The notes under the pieces: model-generated
Told to the model about the DNA's origin: nothing
Databases searched by the model: none
Seen by the model: the letters and a program-made list of their open reading frames with translations, nothing else
Program-made: the position numbers and the translations under genes
Shown here: positions 5,713 through 17,209 of the stretch, in pieces
How the letters are laid out: every line of letters starts with the position of its first letter
Numbering within the stretch: position 1 is the first letter of the stretch
From: a virus
Reading direction: 5' to 3' (one strand)
DNA: 20,358 bases
Virus record (IMG/VR): IMGVR_UViG_3300000232_000011
Coordinates: 1-20,358 of that record

Positions 5713-6180
5713 TTACAGATAACAAACTAATATCTCAATATCAAAATGTTTAAATTCTTCAGTCAATATTTCTTTTACTTTACTCCATTGCAATCCGTCT
5801 AAACCGCATCCAATCTTTGGCATTGCTATACATTTAATATCAAGCTCTACACACTGTTTTCTCAAGTCTGTTAAACTATTTGTCAAAGTCTTATATGTTG
5901 GTTTATTCCAATACATATTTTTAGTTATTAGATTAAACACTCTAATCCATTGATTATTTTCATACTTTGAATATAGACAGCATGTACCAATACCGTCAGT
6001 TTCTTTTCTTATCATTACTATATTCTTCATTTCTGGGAACTTATCATTGAACAATGCCGCTATACCAAATCTTTTACCAGCATTAGAGATTCCCATTGCT
6101 ACGTCATCTGAAATGCAATGAACGAGTGCATATTTTCCAACCAGTTCAAACAAATCTTTTTTCTCTTCTTTAAGTATCAT
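5713..6180 (-). CDS. TARG1/OARD1-like macrodomain protein (ADP-ribosyl hydrolase)
   Basis: The start at 6180 (MILKEEKKDLFELVG) is chosen for TTGGAGGTT upstream; a longer frame to 6240 lacks a site. The 155-residue protein is a single macrodomain. CISDDVAMGISNAGKRFGIA (22-41) is the ribose-binding loop region, NLITKNMYWNKPTYKTL (83-99) and MPKIGCGLDGLQW (120-132) match the ALC1/TARG1/DarG branch, including the lysine in ITK (K87) and the aspartate in GCGLD (D128) that TARG1 uses for catalysis. Known relatives remove ADP-ribose from glutamate, from DNA thymidine marked by DarT, or hydrolyse O-acetyl-ADP-ribose. It may counter a host ADP-ribosylating defence such as DarTG, or clear NAD-derived metabolites; that is inference. 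Divergent from the SASP gene. Confidence 0.88.
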   Translation of the reverse strand: MILKEEKKDLFELVGKYALVHCISDDVAMGISNAGKRFGIAALFNDKFPEMKNIVMIRKETDGIGTCCLYSKYENNQWIRVFNLITKNMYWNKPTYKTLTNSLTDLRKQCVELDIKCIAMPKIGCGLDGLQWSKVKEILTEEFKHFDIEILVCYL

Positions 6181-6266
6181 AATAACCTCCAATTGGTTAA
6201 AATTTTCGCTAATTGCGTTTGTTTTAATCATGCGACGCATAAGCGCCGTTTGTAATTTTTTACCAT

Positions 6267-6589: not shown

Positions 6590-7822
6590 TTATTCGATAA
6601 CACATTCAAATGCATTTTTATCATCGCGAATCCTTATAAATCTAGGTTCACGCAATGCACCAGTCTTTGGAACTTGTTCCATTGCAAATACTTCTGCAAC
6701 CATTCCTTTATATTTGTCCTGATTTTCTGTAAACTCTTGTCTCATTTCATCTTTTATACCAGAAGTATAGCCAACTTCTACAAGCTCACCATCTTTATAT
6801 TGACCAAATGATACTGAACCTATCCACCCATAATAGTGGAATTTAGTAATAGGTTTAACTTGCATACCATCAGACATACCTCTATCAGTAGCTTGTTCAA
6901 GTCCAGTAGCTGTAAACTTATGCCCATCGTCTGTCATCCAATATGACCAGCTAGTTATATCTTTTCCGGTATAATCAACTTCTGCTGGTTTAAATCCAGT
7001 TATAACTACATCGAAAGTATCACCTTTCTTCCACTTTAGCCATGGTATAAACAAAATACCTTTCTTTTTATTTGCGCGAACTTTAGAAGGATGACCTTTA
7101 CCGTCTCTTATCTCACCTTCATAATATAAAGAATTTTTATGTTTAAGAATCATACCTTCTCCGCCGTCTGCTACAATTTGCTCCCATCTTTCTTTACTTC
7201 CTTCAAATGGTACTATTTCTGAGATATGGAAAAAATCCTTAATGTCTTTACATAAAATTTCTTTTGTTACCGGATGCTCAAAGTACCAATCCCTATTCAT
7301 ATAAAGCATTTCTTGATAAAAATCTTCAAGAATCCTTCGTCTTTCGTGATATTGTACCCTTCTAAAGTCAGTACCTTTATATTGAATCATATCGTACATC
7401 ATGTAATGAACAAACCCTTTTTCAATTTGATTTGCCAAAGAAGTTTCAGGTAACCCGCCAATCATTGAAGTTATGTCGTGAGACCTGCATCCTGGCTTCC
7501 ATATCTCACCATCTGGAATTGTACCGTTGAAATTATGCTTTAATATTTTGAGGTGAGGTATATTATCAGTACGCTCTGTAGGCCATGGAGAACCATTTCT
7601 AGCTGTTTCTATTGCAATACTCCTTGTCGTAAACCTTATTATATTGGAAAACCATGAAGGCATTCTATAGCCGTCATATTTAATCTCCCTTATATAGTCA
7701 GGGTCTTCAATGTATTGCACAAGTTCATCATAATTCTTAGGTTTAACCGCACCCATCGGTATAAGCGGCCGAAAATTAAGAATATCTACTTCGCTTTCCT
7801 TATTTTTTTTGATTTTTTGCAT
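6590..7822 (-). CDS. ATP-dependent DNA ligase
   Basis: Seals nicks in phage DNA using ATP via a lysyl-AMP intermediate. Nucleotidyltransferase motifs are in order: motif I EIKYDGYR (46-53, nucleophile K48), motif III PDGEIW (103-108), motif IV GGEGMILKHKN (220-230), motif V PWLKWKKGD (260-268). The C-terminal OB part ends with AEVFAMEQVPKTGALREPRF and IRIRDDK, typical of ATP ligases (LRxPRFxxxRxDK). 410 aa is in the range of phage and small bacterial enzymes. The start ATG 7822 has AAGGAGG upstream; this site and the first 37 nt overlap the end of the GIY-YIG gene. It is the last gene of its unit. Confidence 0.92.
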   Translation of the reverse strand: MQKIKKNKESEVDILNFRPLIPMGAVKPKNYDELVQYIEDPDYIREIKYDGYRMPSWFSNIIRFTTRSIAIETARNGSPWPTERTDNIPHLKILKHNFNGTIPDGEIWKPGCRSHDITSMIGGLPETSLANQIEKGFVHYMMYDMIQYKGTDFRRVQYHERRRILEDFYQEMLYMNRDWYFEHPVTKEILCKDIKDFFHISEIVPFEGSKERWEQIVADGGEGMILKHKNSLYYEGEIRDGKGHPSKVRANKKKGILFIPWLKWKKGDTFDVVITGFKPAEVDYTGKDITSWSYWMTDDGHKFTATGLEQATDRGMSDGMQVKPITKFHYYGWIGSVSFGQYKDGELVEVGYTSGIKDEMRQEFTENQDKYKGMVAEVFAMEQVPKTGALREPRFIRIRDDKNAFECVIE

Positions 7823-8487
7823 TTATCTTCCTCCTTAATTAGTTCATACATATAATGTTTACCAGTTTTAATAGATTGTACTACTTTATGCGATATGTTA
7901 TATTTACTTGCAATTTCATTTTTAGAACAACCGTTGTTCATATCACTTACTATTGACTTAAAAATATCTATTTCAATATAATTGCCTTTTGCTTTAGCTT
8001 TCTTTATCAAAGTATTTAGCGAATAAGTCTTTCCTTTTTTAATTTCTGACATTTTTTTAATAGTTTCTTCAGAATGCTGTTTACCATAGAATCCATTATT
8101 TTCGCCAGAATATTTTTCCGGATGCATAAGTCTATCGAGTTTAACTTTTTCAGATATTTGCTTCTTTAAATATTCTGGTAAAGTGCCTTGATTGCCAGCC
8201 TCTCTTATATTATAACCAAAATTTCTATCAAGGGATTGATATGCCTCCATATAAAATTTTTCTTTTTCAGTAAGTTCATCAAAACCACATTCCTCAAGAA
8301 CTATAAATTCAAAACTTTCTTCATCATATTTATTCCATTCATTTAATAAAATAGGATTGCACTTAACACTGTTAGCTTTTAACGCTTTTATATGTTCATT
8401 CCATCTTTTGTTAAGTTGAATAGATTGACCAATATAAATCTTTCCATTAACTTTATTTTTAATCATATAGATTCCAATTTTATCCAT
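7786..8487 (-). CDS. GIY-YIG homing endonuclease with NUMOD3 and C-terminal HTH
   Basis: Free-standing site-specific nuclease of the Seg/I-TevI type that spreads its own gene into related phages. Residues 5-20 hold GIY...YIG (GIYMIKNKVNGKIYIG), R28/W29 follow in NKRWNEH, and the FEFIVLEEC strand precedes the catalytic glutamate helix. ENNGFYGKQHSEETIKKMSE is a NUMOD3 DNA-binding motif; CSKNEIASKYNISHKVVQSI near the C-terminus is helix-turn-helix-like. The ATG at 8487 has AGGAGG, but both are inside a 16-bp hairpin of the transcript. The gene runs 37 nt into the ligase gene, the probable target neighbour. Confidence 0.93.
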   Translation of the reverse strand: MDKIGIYMIKNKVNGKIYIGQSIQLNKRWNEHIKALKANSVKCNPILLNEWNKYDEESFEFIVLEECGFDELTEKEKFYMEAYQSLDRNFGYNIREAGNQGTLPEYLKKQISEKVKLDRLMHPEKYSGENNGFYGKQHSEETIKKMSEIKKGKTYSLNTLIKKAKAKGNYIEIDIFKSIVSDMNNGCSKNEIASKYNISHKVVQSIKTGKHYMYELIKEEDKCKKSKKIRKAK

Positions 8488-9266: not shown

Positions 9267-9671
9267 CTACTTTATTACTATAGCCATATACCATGTTTCT
9301 TTTTTCTTGGTTTTCCTATGACCTATAGTATCAACATAAGTTTCAAACCTTCTACCAGTATCAATCATTGGAGCAAATCCTTCAGCGTATGCAGAACTTA
9401 AGTAACCGATTTGTTTTCCGTTTGCATAAACTGCAATGGCATTCTTATCATAAGGGTTTTTCGGTTCCCTTACCAAAGTTATTTTAGAAGCCTTTGTTAA
9501 ATGCGATATAATTTCTTGTCTTGAAGTACCATCCGGATTGTTATGTGTTGCTCCAACTACTTTATACTTTGTCATTTTGTTACTGTCAAGTATTGACATC
9601 TTTGACCTCCTTCCAAAACCATATGCTTCGACACCATACATTCTTGCAACTTTATTAAACAAATGATTCAA
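9267..9671 (-). CDS. HIRAN-domain protein
   Basis: Residues about 34-130 form a stand-alone HIRAN domain: KYKVVGATHNNPDG, ISHLTKASKITLVREPKNPY, DKNAIAVYANGKQIGYLSS, then a helix EGFAPMIDTGRRF. HIRAN domains bind DNA 3' ends or stalled-fork structures, mostly as parts of helicases such as HLTF. Two starts compete. The TTG at 9671 has GGAGG 9 nt away, but that site is in a 20-bp hairpin. An ATG at 9599 has a near-perfect AAGGAGGT 5 nt away and would give 110 aa with the full domain. The long form is given; the short form may be made at times when the hairpin is closed. No catalytic domain is fused. Confidence 0.85.
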   Translation of the reverse strand: MNHLFNKVARMYGVEAYGFGRRSKMSILDSNKMTKYKVVGATHNNPDGTSRQEIISHLTKASKITLVREPKNPYDKNAIAVYANGKQIGYLSSAYAEGFAPMIDTGRRFETYVDTIGHRKTKKKETWYMAIVIK

Positions 9672-9673
9672 AG

Positions 9674-9755
9674 CAAATCGCCTCCAATAATTATATTTCG
9701 ACCTAATTATATAATATCAAATTAGAATCAAAAATTAACTATCAGAGGCGATTTG
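9674..9755 (-). promoter_or_regulatory. RNA hairpin sequestering the upstream SD of the HIRAN gene, promoter-like loop
   Basis: In the minus-strand transcript 9755-9736 (CAAAUCGCCUC then UGAUAGUUA) pairs without a gap with 9693-9674 (UAAUUAUUG then GAGGCGAUUUG), 20 bp with three G-U pairs; the 11 outer pairs are perfect. GGAGG of the TTG start is in the 3' arm. The 42-nt loop holds TATAAT (9706-9711) and the overlapping extended -10 TGATATTAT, with only weak -35 matches (TTTTGA at 16 nt). A transcript starting there (near 9699) would lack the 5' arm and expose the site. Confidence 0.75.
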
Positions 9756-10511: not shown

Positions 10512-11168
10512 TTATACCTCCAATCTACAAACCCAATGATAACCTTTTCTTATAGTCGATAATAATGAAGTAATTTCTTCATTATACATAGATTTTATAG
10601 ACTTGTTATCAATACCTTCTTTTATTAATTTATATATTTTTATAATATCTTCATCAGACAAATTTAATTTTCTATTTTTACCTCTTGCAGATAGTTGCAT
10701 TTTCTTTTTAGTTTCTTCAGTATGTTGTTTTCCGGTAAAATTGCTTGCATGCTTTTTAGCAGATGTTGAAATATTCTTTTTCCATTCTTCTGAAAACGTT
10801 ATTTTGCGACCTTTTAATTTTTCAGACATTTTCTTTTTAGATTCTTCAGTATGTCTTCCATACCAACTTTCTTTTGGAGGGTGCATATTATATCCAAATT
10901 TTCTATTTAAAGATTTATATTTATCAATATACAGTTGTTCTATCTCTAGTAATTTATCTTTTGCACATTCTTCTAATATAGAAAATTCAAAGTTTTGTTC
11001 TCCATATTTATTCCATTCGTTTTGAAAATGATTATTTGTACCGTAATATTTTGACTTGCTTAATGTAGACTTATGAATCTTCCATCTCATTTCTATATCT
11101 ATAGAACTACCAACATAAACTTTACCATTAATATTATTAACAATACTATAAATTCCACATATTTTCAT
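10512..11168 (-). CDS. GIY-YIG homing endonuclease with two NUMOD3 motifs
   Basis: The start is ATG 11168 (MKICGIYSIV): AAGGAG is 8 nt upstream and overlaps the GTG (11177) that a longer frame would need. 218 aa. Residues 5-19 are GIYSIVNNINGKVYVG, so the second motif is YVG; MRWKIHK and NFEFSILEEC follow. Two NUMOD3 stretches are seen: YGRHTEESKKKMSEKLKGRK and FTGKQHTEETKKKMQLSARG. The C-terminus (LSDEDIIKIYKLIKEGIDNK) is an HTH-like recognition region. It sits between the sigma-like gene and an 84-aa gene. Its ribosome site is inside a hairpin. Confidence 0.92.
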   Translation of the reverse strand: MKICGIYSIVNNINGKVYVGSSIDIEMRWKIHKSTLSKSKYYGTNNHFQNEWNKYGEQNFEFSILEECAKDKLLEIEQLYIDKYKSLNRKFGYNMHPPKESWYGRHTEESKKKMSEKLKGRKITFSEEWKKNISTSAKKHASNFTGKQHTEETKKKMQLSARGKNRKLNLSDEDIIKIYKLIKEGIDNKSIKSMYNEEITSLLSTIRKGYHWVCRLEV

Positions 11169-11222
11169 TATTATCACTCCTTAAATTATCGTATCATATA
11201 ACTTAATAAAAATGATAATAAT
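11167..11222 (-). promoter_or_regulatory. RNA hairpin sequestering SD of the second GIY-YIG gene
   Basis: Minus-strand AUUAUUAUCAUUUU (11222-11209) pairs with GGAGUGAUAAUAAU (11180-11167) at all 14 positions, three as U-G; loop 28 nt. GGAG and the first two bases of the AUG are paired. The 5' arm starts right after the stop codon of the upstream gene. The stem is AT-rich and so weaker than the one at 8485. Confidence 0.7.
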
Positions 11223-13998: not shown

Positions 13999-14032
13999 AA
14001 TGTAACGCCTCCTAAGATTTAATTTTGTTTTA

Positions 14033-14209
14033 GTCTATCGCCTTAATAAACCGACCAATGAATTTCCCGGTTACCATTGTAATTGCCATTTAAACTAATC
14101 TTATAGACTGTTTGGTCGGCTAACTGTAGTGGTTGTCCATATTCATTTCATACTTAACTGGGCCGAAACACCATCTTAAGTATTTGGTCGGTTTATTAAA
14201 GCGATAAAC
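14033..14209 (-). promoter_or_regulatory. Structured 5' leader RNA of the HU-like gene (26-bp closing helix)
   Basis: Positions 14209-14184 pair with 14058-14033 in the minus-strand RNA over 26 consecutive pairs; the only two non-Watson-Crick ones are G-U on this strand and mismatches on the other. The enclosed 125 nt holds a perfect 8-bp hairpin stacked next to the helix (AUACUUAA 14183-14176 with UUAAGUAU 14157-14150) and a weaker one (AAAC.GUCU / AGAU..GUUU, near 14088-14109), so a three-way junction is possible. CCGACCAAA occurs twice, in the 5' arm and again inside, so the 3' arm could pair with either. About 22 nt separate the helix from the HU ribosome site. No known riboswitch class is recognised. 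Confidence 0.75.
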
Positions 14210-14224
14210 CGTGGTTATAATAAT

Positions 14225-14252
14225 ATAATATCACGTTTGGGATAAAAGTAAA
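14225..14252 (-). promoter_or_regulatory. Promoter P7 for the HU-like gene
   Basis: Minus strand TTTACT (14247-14252), 16-nt spacer, TATTAT (14225-14230) preceded by TGA. It lies right behind the thymidylate kinase stop codon. The -10 context GTGATATTATATTAT resembles the loop of the HIRAN hairpin more than the TAGAGTG family. Confidence 0.7.
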
Positions 14253-14260
14253 CGCTTTTT

Positions 14261-14881
14261 TTAAAATTTGAAAATATTTTTAACATAACTCCAAATATCA
14301 TCACTGACTTTATCGATAGTCTGAGTACCATCAACAATTGTCCTGGCTCTTTCGAATCCATCTTTACCACAAGCCTCTAAATACAGATTGCGAACGCCAT
14401 TAAGGAGATTATAGTCCTTCTCGTGTCTATCATTTTCGGCAATACCGTTATCTCCGTATTTTGGGTTTCTTTGCATACTTAATTCTGCCGGAATATCAAC
14501 CAATATTTCTGCATTAGGTTTAATTTGAAAGACTTGTAGTGTATGCAGCCATGTTTTATTCAAACCTTTATAAATTGCATATACTTCTTGACTTAATAAA
14601 TATCTGTCAAGAACAAGAAAATCAACACCTTCTTCATTTAACTTATGGAACCATTGCTGTTGTGCCTGCTTATCTGCAGCCATAATGAGTTCAACAGTAT
14701 ATTTGTCTATATCATATCTTTTGAAAAGCCAATCTTGAATTAGTTTTCCAGTTGGTGTATCGTACCTGTGAAAGTCAGACTGAACCACCTTAAATCCCTG
14801 TTTTTGAAGTTTTTCTGTAAGAATCTTTGTATGTGTTGCCTTACCGCACTTGTCAATACCTTCCAATACAACAATCTTCAT
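14261..14881 (-). CDS. tmk: Thymidylate kinase
   Basis: Phosphorylates dTMP to dTDP with ATP. The P-loop is EGIDKCGKATHT (7-18; G13-K14), the TMP-site DR motif is LVLDRYLLSQEVYA, and the base-binding FHRYDTPTGKLIQ stretch fits the family. Its 206 aa is normal. ATG 14881 is used (a TTG one codon upstream is possible); it overlaps the upstream stop as TGATG, with GAGGGGG 10 nt away. Together with dCMP deaminase this supports dTTP supply for phage replication. The P-loop has K-C where bacterial enzymes mostly have G-A, a tolerated difference. Confidence 0.92.
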   Translation of the reverse strand: MKIVVLEGIDKCGKATHTKILTEKLQKQGFKVVQSDFHRYDTPTGKLIQDWLFKRYDIDKYTVELIMAADKQAQQQWFHKLNEEGVDFLVLDRYLLSQEVYAIYKGLNKTWLHTLQVFQIKPNAEILVDIPAELSMQRNPKYGDNGIAENDRHEKDYNLLNGVRNLYLEACGKDGFERARTIVDGTQTIDKVSDDIWSYVKNIFKF

Positions 14882-15108
14882 CAATTCGAAGCCCCCTCTA
14901 ATTTATAATTACCATCCATTCTTGGAAAAAGACGTATTAAATGGTCTATATTCAATCCTTTAAGTCTTTCAGGATTATTATAGTCTAACATTAAGCATTC
15001 AGCCGGTTTTACTCCATATAGATTTATTAACTGACTTGCTTTAATATGATGCCATTGGCCATCACGACTGCTTCTAACAGGTCCTGGTAATACAACATAC
15101 TTAATCAT
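14881..15108 (-). CDS. Conserved small phage protein, 75 aa
   Basis: ATG 15108 with TTGGAGG. The N-terminal block YVVLPGPVRSSRDGQWHHIKASQLINLYGV is a pattern I recall from many phage and some bacterial small proteins (PGPVRS..DG.WH.I.A..L..LYGV), followed by ECLMLDYNNPERLKGL. No function is established that I know of. It is translationally coupled to thymidylate kinase. Confidence 0.8.
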   Translation of the reverse strand: MIKYVVLPGPVRSSRDGQWHHIKASQLINLYGVKPAECLMLDYNNPERLKGLNIDHLIRLFPRMDGNYKLEGASN

Positions 15109-15448: not shown

Positions 15449-15964
15449 CTATACGGGCCTCAAATGTTCAAGATTTATTTCGACAGATCGCTCAACAACT
15501 CCGAACATTTCTATATAAACCCTTGCCTTATATTTATTTTTGATTATCGTCTTACATGTTCCTATGAAATTAGCAAAAGGTCCGTCGACAATTATTACTC
15601 TTCTGTTTATTAAACCGCTATAATTAACAACCTTTTCAGTGCATTCGATACTCATTAAATGTTCCACTTCTTCATCTGAAATAGGTATTGGTTTATTATT
15701 AGACTCATCTTTCAAAAACGACATAACTGGAGTTAACCTCATTATAGTTTTCCAGATTAATGAATCTTCTTCAAAATTAAACAGAATATAATTGTCAAAA
15801 ATAGGGGCAATTATAACTTCTTTTTTACCTTCTTTTACTACGACTTTAGACATCTTAGGGTACCATATTTCTATATCTTTAAACTCTTCTCTCTTTTCAA
15901 AAGTAGAAGTTAATTGACTAAGATATCCATGATAGAAGCAACCTACAAACCATTTTTTTGCCAT
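15449..15964 (-). CDS. NusG-like transcription elongation factor (NGN plus KOW)
   Basis: Residues 1-105 fit the NGN domain: KKWFVGCFYHGYLSQLTSTF, an E-rich segment with DIEIWYPK and the conserved hydrophobic IFDNYILFNF (cf. FPGYVLV), then W71, LTPVMSFL and PIPISDEEVEHLM. Residues 120-171 are a KOW-type module: RRVIIVDGPFANFIGTCKTI, YIEMFGVVERSVEINLEHLR. 171 aa is close to bacterial NusG. NusG paralogues bind the RNA polymerase clamp and make it process through terminators; a phage copy may favour phage operons. ATG 15964 has GGGGGTGA. The gene lies right behind the terminator in the end of the RuvC-like gene, with no promoter between. Confidence 0.88.
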   Translation of the reverse strand: MAKKWFVGCFYHGYLSQLTSTFEKREEFKDIEIWYPKMSKVVVKEGKKEVIIAPIFDNYILFNFEEDSLIWKTIMRLTPVMSFLKDESNNKPIPISDEEVEHLMSIECTEKVVNYSGLINRRVIIVDGPFANFIGTCKTIIKNKYKARVYIEMFGVVERSVEINLEHLRPV

Positions 15965-16654: not shown

Positions 16655-17209
16655 CTACCTCCGGTTCTTCTTTTTGTTTCTTAATTTAAGAGCATCTGAA
16701 ATTTTCTTTTTAGTTTCTTCTGATTGTTTTCTTCCAAACATAGGATTATTAATCCCTTTATTTTTGTCTGGATTATTTTCATATTCTTTTAACAAATTTT
16801 GCCTAAAAAGTTCATTAGTCTTTTTACTTCTAATATAATTTTTAGGATTTCTTTTTCTTGCATTCTTTTGCGATATAGACTGTTTCAACTTAGTTTCTTC
16901 TGATGCCAATACTGCTCCAGAAGAATCGTGAATATTATATCCTGTATCTTTGTTTAAAGAATTAAAACTATCAATCCAATATTGCTCTCTTTCTTTAAAA
17001 CTTTCTTTATTACATTTTTCTATAATAACAAATTCAAAGTTTTCTTCACCATATAAAATCCAATCTTCCCTCAAATATTTATTGCAATATCTATAATTTT
17101 TATTGAGTACTATTTTATGCGTCTTCCAACGTTTTTCAAAATCAATAGTACAACCAATATAAATCTTATTATTAACTTTACATTTAATTGCATAAATACC
17201 ACTGTTCAT
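16655..17209 (-). CDS. GIY-YIG homing endonuclease
   Basis: 184 aa; GIYAIKCKVNNKIYIG at 4-19, EKRWKTH, FEFVIIEKC, then FKEREQYWIDSFNSLNKDTG around the catalytic glutamate, and GRKQSEETKKKISDALKLR, a NUMOD3, at the C-terminus; the region between is basic. ATG 17209 is 10 nt after the stop of the SbcC-like gene and has no clear SD, so it may be reached by re-initiation. No sequestering hairpin is visible here, unlike the other two copies. Inserted between the SbcC-like and RuvC-like genes; its stop CGGAGGTAG supplies the RuvC-like gene's ribosome site. Confidence 0.92.
   Translation of the reverse strand: MNSGIYAIKCKVNNKIYIGCTIDFEKRWKTHKIVLNKNYRYCNKYLREDWILYGEENFEFVIIEKCNKESFKEREQYWIDSFNSLNKDTGYNIHDSSGAVLASEETKLKQSISQKNARKRNPKNYIRSKKTNELFRQNLLKEYENNPDKNKGINNPMFGRKQSEETKKKISDALKLRNKKKNRR

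Follow-up and report, generated by a model that had tools for sequence, protein, structure and literature searches.

The HU mRNA of this phage appears to begin with a long hairpin. On the minus strand of the window (the whole 20,358-nt stretch of viral DNA analysed here), a thymidylate-kinase (TMK) gene, a promoter-like site, a leader of about 220 nt and a gene for a 118-aa HU-family protein follow one another in that order. Sequence comparison with two related phages indicates that the outer helix of the leader, P1, which lies just downstream of the conserved promoter-like site and is 25-30 bp long, is kept by compensatory mutation in all three phages, and that the 95-125 nt domain it encloses diverges fast. 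Covariation marks P1 as a selected structure, here preceding the gene for a nucleoid protein in a phage lineage that is uncultured. The features of the locus are as follows.

14261-14884, minus strand: thymidylate-kinase gene
14225-14252, minus strand: promoter-like site, TTTACT (14252-14247), 16-nt spacer, TATTAT (14230-14225); consensus scan, same site in both relatives (L004 and L005)
14184-14209, minus strand: 5' arm of outer helix P1; inverted repeat, fold, compensatory changes with the 3' arm
14150-14183, minus strand: predicted hairpin P2 (ATACTTAA/TTAAGTAT); MFE and centroid folds, hairpin at the same place in L004, uncertain in L005
14057-14147, minus strand: predicted arm closed by P3 (AATGAAT/ATTCATT); MFE fold
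14033-14058, minus strand: 3' arm of outer helix P1; inverted repeat, fold, covariation
14008-14013, minus strand: Shine-Dalgarno site AGGAGG; from the sequence, about 20 nt downstream of P1 and outside the helix
13642-13998, minus strand: HU-family DNA-binding protein gene, 118 aa; PF00216, phrog_379, PDB HU/IHF chains

The outer helix and its covariation

The original prediction of a structured leader between a promoter and a phage HU gene is borne out in its basic layout. The product of the downstream gene matches PF00216 (E 2.4e-12) as well as HU/IHF chains in the PDB, and the promoter placed ahead of the leader corresponds to TTTACT-16-TATTAT, from which a transcription start near 14218 is predicted. 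This site is one of 14 such consensus matches, with 11.7 expected by chance; its place is conserved, and its sequence largely so, in both relatives. The inverted repeat, predicted as a 26-bp helix with two G-U pairs on the transcribed strand only and about 125 nt inside, was described correctly down to its coordinates: the arms are 26 nt each, 92% complementary and 125 nt apart, the two positions that break complementarity read G-U on the transcribed minus strand and C-A on the plus strand, and one further G-U extends the helix to 27 pairs. P1 is the sole stem of at least 21 contiguous pairs on either strand of the window (G-U allowed, span up to 400). The minus strand of the leader folds to -66.0 kcal/mol against -35.3 +/- 3.8 for dinucleotide shuffles (z -8.0), compared with z -4.7 for the plus strand, and in these calculations the folding strength resides in the outer helix.

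The relatives are two IMG/VR contigs, of 107.6 kb (containing L004) and 111 kb (containing L005), that encode an HU 81% identical to that of the window. Gene order around HU is conserved in all three phages, the leader always lies between TMK and HU, and each relative has its own strongly folded leader at this place (z -7.7 and -8.3). The arm sequences have drifted, with 13-16 of 25 positions identical between phages, yet 24 or 25 of the 25 positions pair when an arm is set against its own partner and only 16-21 when it is set against the partner from another phage. Across the 25 aligned P1 pairs 97.3% of cells are paired and 12 pairs are changed on both sides, in a sample of just three related sequences whose arms were aligned by hand round an invariant TTAA block, an alignment that leans towards the helix. 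None of 500 shuffles reaches any of these measures, and sliding the partner arm by one to three columns destroys the signal. RNAalifold, run on an independent MAFFT alignment of the two relatives, recovered this helix, in which 8 pairs are compensated. Because the arms drift and still pair with their own partners in the same TMK-leader-HU position, P1 is a selected structure rather than a chance hairpin; covariation and conservation of the arms in related phages, on which the original prediction had been staked, are thus both seen here. Its further claim, that the leader lies outside known families, is supported by this covariation in homologous leaders together with searches of Rfam 15, in which no family reached the gathering threshold in the window, L004 or L005 and lax thresholds gave chance-level matches only.

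In searches for further relatives that used HU, terminase, capsid and a conserved protein of 207 aa as queries, only the two phages described above carry this HU; a 42.6-kb contig (G005) shares the capsid protein, and HU was not found in it. GTDB genomes queried with the 5'-3' exonuclease gave distant matches only. In cultured phages the terminase and capsid are about 30% identical and the leader has no match beyond a single one of 21 nt at E 0.5, and on these comparisons there is no close cultured relative. Several candidates were set aside: 21 IMG/VR contigs with AATAAACCGACCAAAT were dismissed as chance (L007, the only one inspected, lacks such a leader), as was L034 with CTAGGTNGCANGGNTAAAGA, and L067 has an unrelated HU and no leader. 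A mobile element of the MITE type was also rejected, as neither the element nor its arms recur in the window and inspection by eye showed no target-site duplication; its occurrence at one and the same place in three phages, with arms that covary, disfavours this reading as well. A leader peptide was discarded on finding no ORF common to all three leaders.

Compensatory change by itself fits DNA too, and the repeat could be an element of the genome rather than of the transcript, extruding as a cruciform by the promoter that is bound by HU and represses transcription. The promoter of E. coli hupA overlaps a large inverted repeat for which this mode of action has been proposed, and P. gingivalis has an inverted repeat of 77 bp linked to one of its HU genes (PMC3969353). 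These loci resemble the present one in having a large inverted repeat at an HU gene, a recurrence possibly tied to the liking of HU for branched structures. They differ from it in that here the repeat is downstream of the promoter, within the expected transcript, and G-U pairs are favoured on the sense strand. That strand has five G-U pairs against one C-A mismatch, although the antisense strand of L004 folds slightly better than the sense strand. Extrusion would moreover be costly with an interior of 95-125 nt, and the tRNA T-arm motif of the relatives, described below, is meaningful only in RNA. The G-U excess, the T-arm motif and the long interior favour RNA over DNA, suggestively and short of proof, and we consider the cruciform improbable.

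The inner domain and the T-arm of the relatives

The three-way junction of the original prediction is present in the MFE fold of the window leader, but on their own the 125 nt inside P1 show no significant stability (z -1.35), and the inner domains of the three phages, folded alone, are all no more stable than shuffles. In a comparison of inner folds that rests on three sequences, the window leader has the outer helix and a P3-like stem in common with its relatives, and its predicted junction lies at the same position. The predicted repeat of CCGACCAAA is real (14111-14119 and 14183-14191; 0.02 expected), but the two alternative pairings drawn from it fared less well: forcing the second copy onto the 3' arm gives -48.7 instead of -66.0 kcal/mol, and the alternative is absent from both relatives. 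At a cost of about 17 kcal/mol, the CCGACCAAA pairing does not qualify as a competing switch.

The Shine-Dalgarno site lies outside the outer helix in all three phages, with a mean unpaired probability of 0.55 in the window, 0.58 in L004 (for a folded stretch without the outer part of the 5' arm) and 0.84 in L005. By these fold predictions the site is moderately to well accessible, and its position and accessibility argue against simple masking of the start site by the leader. They also bear on the suggestion that the leader senses a ligand or temperature, for which its length, its structure and the repeated CCGACCAAA could be cited. Two competing folds that hide an expression platform were not found for the CCGACCAAA alternative, the one tested; a ligand pocket would be expected to be conserved, and the interior is poorly so; and Rfam gave no match. 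With the Shine-Dalgarno site free of P1 and no competing fold, a simple riboswitch or RNA thermometer is very unlikely.

The leaders of both relatives contain a canonical tRNA T-arm sequence, GGTTCGAATCC (GG-TTCGAAT-CC), with a stem of 5 bp in L004 and 4 bp in L005, preceded in both by a small hairpin and the shared block CTAGGTNGCANGGNTAAAGA. This is the only exact copy in the contig of each relative. The motif is absent from the leader of the window, where a predicted apical domain closed by P3 occupies its position. The relatives share this element with tRNA, tmRNA and viral tRNA-like structures, from which they differ in being known by the T-arm alone and not by an acceptor, an anticodon or a CCA end. 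ARAGORN at normal thresholds called no tRNA gene in either contig and no tRNA or tmRNA in the leaders, and lowered thresholds gave inconsistent calls only, none amounting to a reproducible cloverleaf. Both relatives nonetheless allow a cloverleaf, at a cost of 5-7 kcal/mol relative to the free fold. Its acceptor-like stem would be CTTAATAT/ATATTGAG in L005 and TAATG/CATTA in L004, the linker lengths match as read from the sequence, and several pairs differ on both sides. RNAalifold prefers another arm, in a choice between models that rests on two sequences; the T-arm and the outer helix are common to both. In the 21-nt match noted above, a stretch of L005 is identical to part of a Pseudomonas phage gene called as tRNA-Pro by ARAGORN, and at E 0.5 we claim no descent from it. 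We also discarded a suppressor tRNA with a CUA anticodon: TAG serves as a stop codon, L004 has a different loop, and the relaxed ARAGORN calls disagree.

The T-arm raises the possibility that the leader is the precursor of a small RNA, its inner domain released by RNase III (and in the relatives also by RNase P) to act in trans, for example as a tRNA mimic. The duplex is of sufficient length for RNase III, and GGTTCGAATCC stands as a sole copy in contigs without a called tRNA gene. Against this, the inner domain is the least conserved part of the leader, is not stable beyond shuffles, has neither a tRNA nor an Rfam call and lacks the T-arm in the window phage, so that we regard a trans-acting product as rather unlikely.

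Candidate functions of the leader

The explanation we favour, with a probability that we would put somewhat below even, is that the leader is a phage-encoded 5' element acting in cis on the stability or processing of the HU mRNA. Its near-terminal duplex would shield the 5' end of the message from 5'-to-3' exonuclease decay, and/or RNase III would cut the long duplex and leave a defined 5' end near the strong Shine-Dalgarno site; the branched domain at the top, which resembles tRNA in two phages, could serve as a docking or processing module, and the outcome would be an HU mRNA that is long-lived and well translated. This reading draws on the covariation of P1, the strong folds in three phages, the promoter-like site immediately upstream, the synteny and an AGGAGG outside the helix. 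Some features fit it less well. The expected unpaired 5' tail, about 5-8 nt on the predicted start, is longer than in classical stabilisers, and a plain stabiliser could do without a T-arm and with fewer than 27 bp; the length of the helix exceeds what protection requires and would suffice for RNase III.

There are precedents for such a role. In work cited by PMC3997798, 5'-terminal stem-loops stabilise the ompA, papA and aprE-leader mRNAs in E. coli and B. subtilis. The ompA and papA messages of E. coli and the aprE leader of B. subtilis resemble the present leader in their helix near the 5' end and strong Shine-Dalgarno site outside it, both present here on a predicted start position, and differ from it in that our helix is 27-30 bp long with a branched interior of 95-125 nt; its stabilising role is thus proposed by analogy. 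PMC3997798 also describes how RNase J1 trims the B. subtilis HU message hbs up to the initiating ribosome. Like ours, the hbs leader belongs to an HU message, and there the 5' region is trimmed as far as the ribosome-binding site; hbs is a host gene, and the likeness is one of description.

The main rival to a cis-acting stability or processing element is autogenous control, in which the phage HU would recognise its own leader by shape, as a long duplex with a junction, and adjust translation or mRNA decay. A shape kept as the sequence drifts suits a shape-reading protein. HU prefers forks, three- and four-way junctions and bulges (PMC5683647); its RNA partners include rpoS mRNA and DsrA, and that of HBsu is the Alu domain of scRNA (PMC6523023). 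Together with the large inverted repeats at other HU loci (PMC3969353), this junction preference and binding of structured RNA make shape-based control the main rival. A translation block is not obvious with the Shine-Dalgarno site outside the helix, and the HU of the window differs from the well-studied HUs, so that RNA binding is here proposed by analogy. We hold about one chance in four to be a reasonable estimate for this mechanism.

A broader proposal, which we find doubtful and advance as speculation, is that these leaders form a new RNA family: a phage HU-mRNA leader with a tRNA-elbow-like domain atop a 5' helix of 25-30 bp, read by the phage HU or by a host tRNA-processing enzyme to set HU levels, the phage of the window having kept the scaffold and exchanged the apical domain. 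If this is true, a tRNA-like arm that acts in cis within a phage mRNA leader would couple HU expression either to enzymes that process tRNA or to the preference of HU for branched nucleic acids.

Other structured elements and genes

A second long helix lies at 9674-9755 on the minus strand, where CAAATCGCCTCTGATAGTTA and TAATTATTGGAGGCGATTTG form 20 bp just upstream of a HIRAN-domain gene (9267-9671), with a GGAGG ribosome-binding site within the 3' arm and a promoter-like sequence in the 42-nt loop. A matching helix occurs at the same place in one relative (G001, 80004-80083) and not in the other (G002). The helix at 9674-9755 resembles an arrangement known from T4, where the start site is hidden in long transcripts and left open in short ones made from an inner promoter. 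An 18-bp helix is conserved in both relatives (L046:4767-4848 in G001, L055:12475-12556 in G002). It lies a short distance ahead of a small gene that itself precedes the large terminase gene, and the Shine-Dalgarno site is just outside it.

G001 also contains about 800 nt without ORFs of at least 70 aa (L051:1430-2240, about 101.4-102.2 kb of the genome), rich in AGAGCTC-type and inverted repeats and among the most strongly folding parts of that genome, and G002 has a similar repeat-rich stretch (L056:1200-2000, about 81.2-82.0 kb). Neither stretch has an Rfam match; they are possibly an origin, a packaging site or a large non-coding RNA. Three GIY-YIG/NUMOD3 homing-endonuclease-like genes lie within the 20 kb (7786-8487, 10512-11177 and 16655-17209, minus strand), all matching one region of G001, and the minus strand of the window further encodes a NusG-like protein (15449-15964), a macro-domain protein (5713-6240) and a peptide deformylase (1321-1770).
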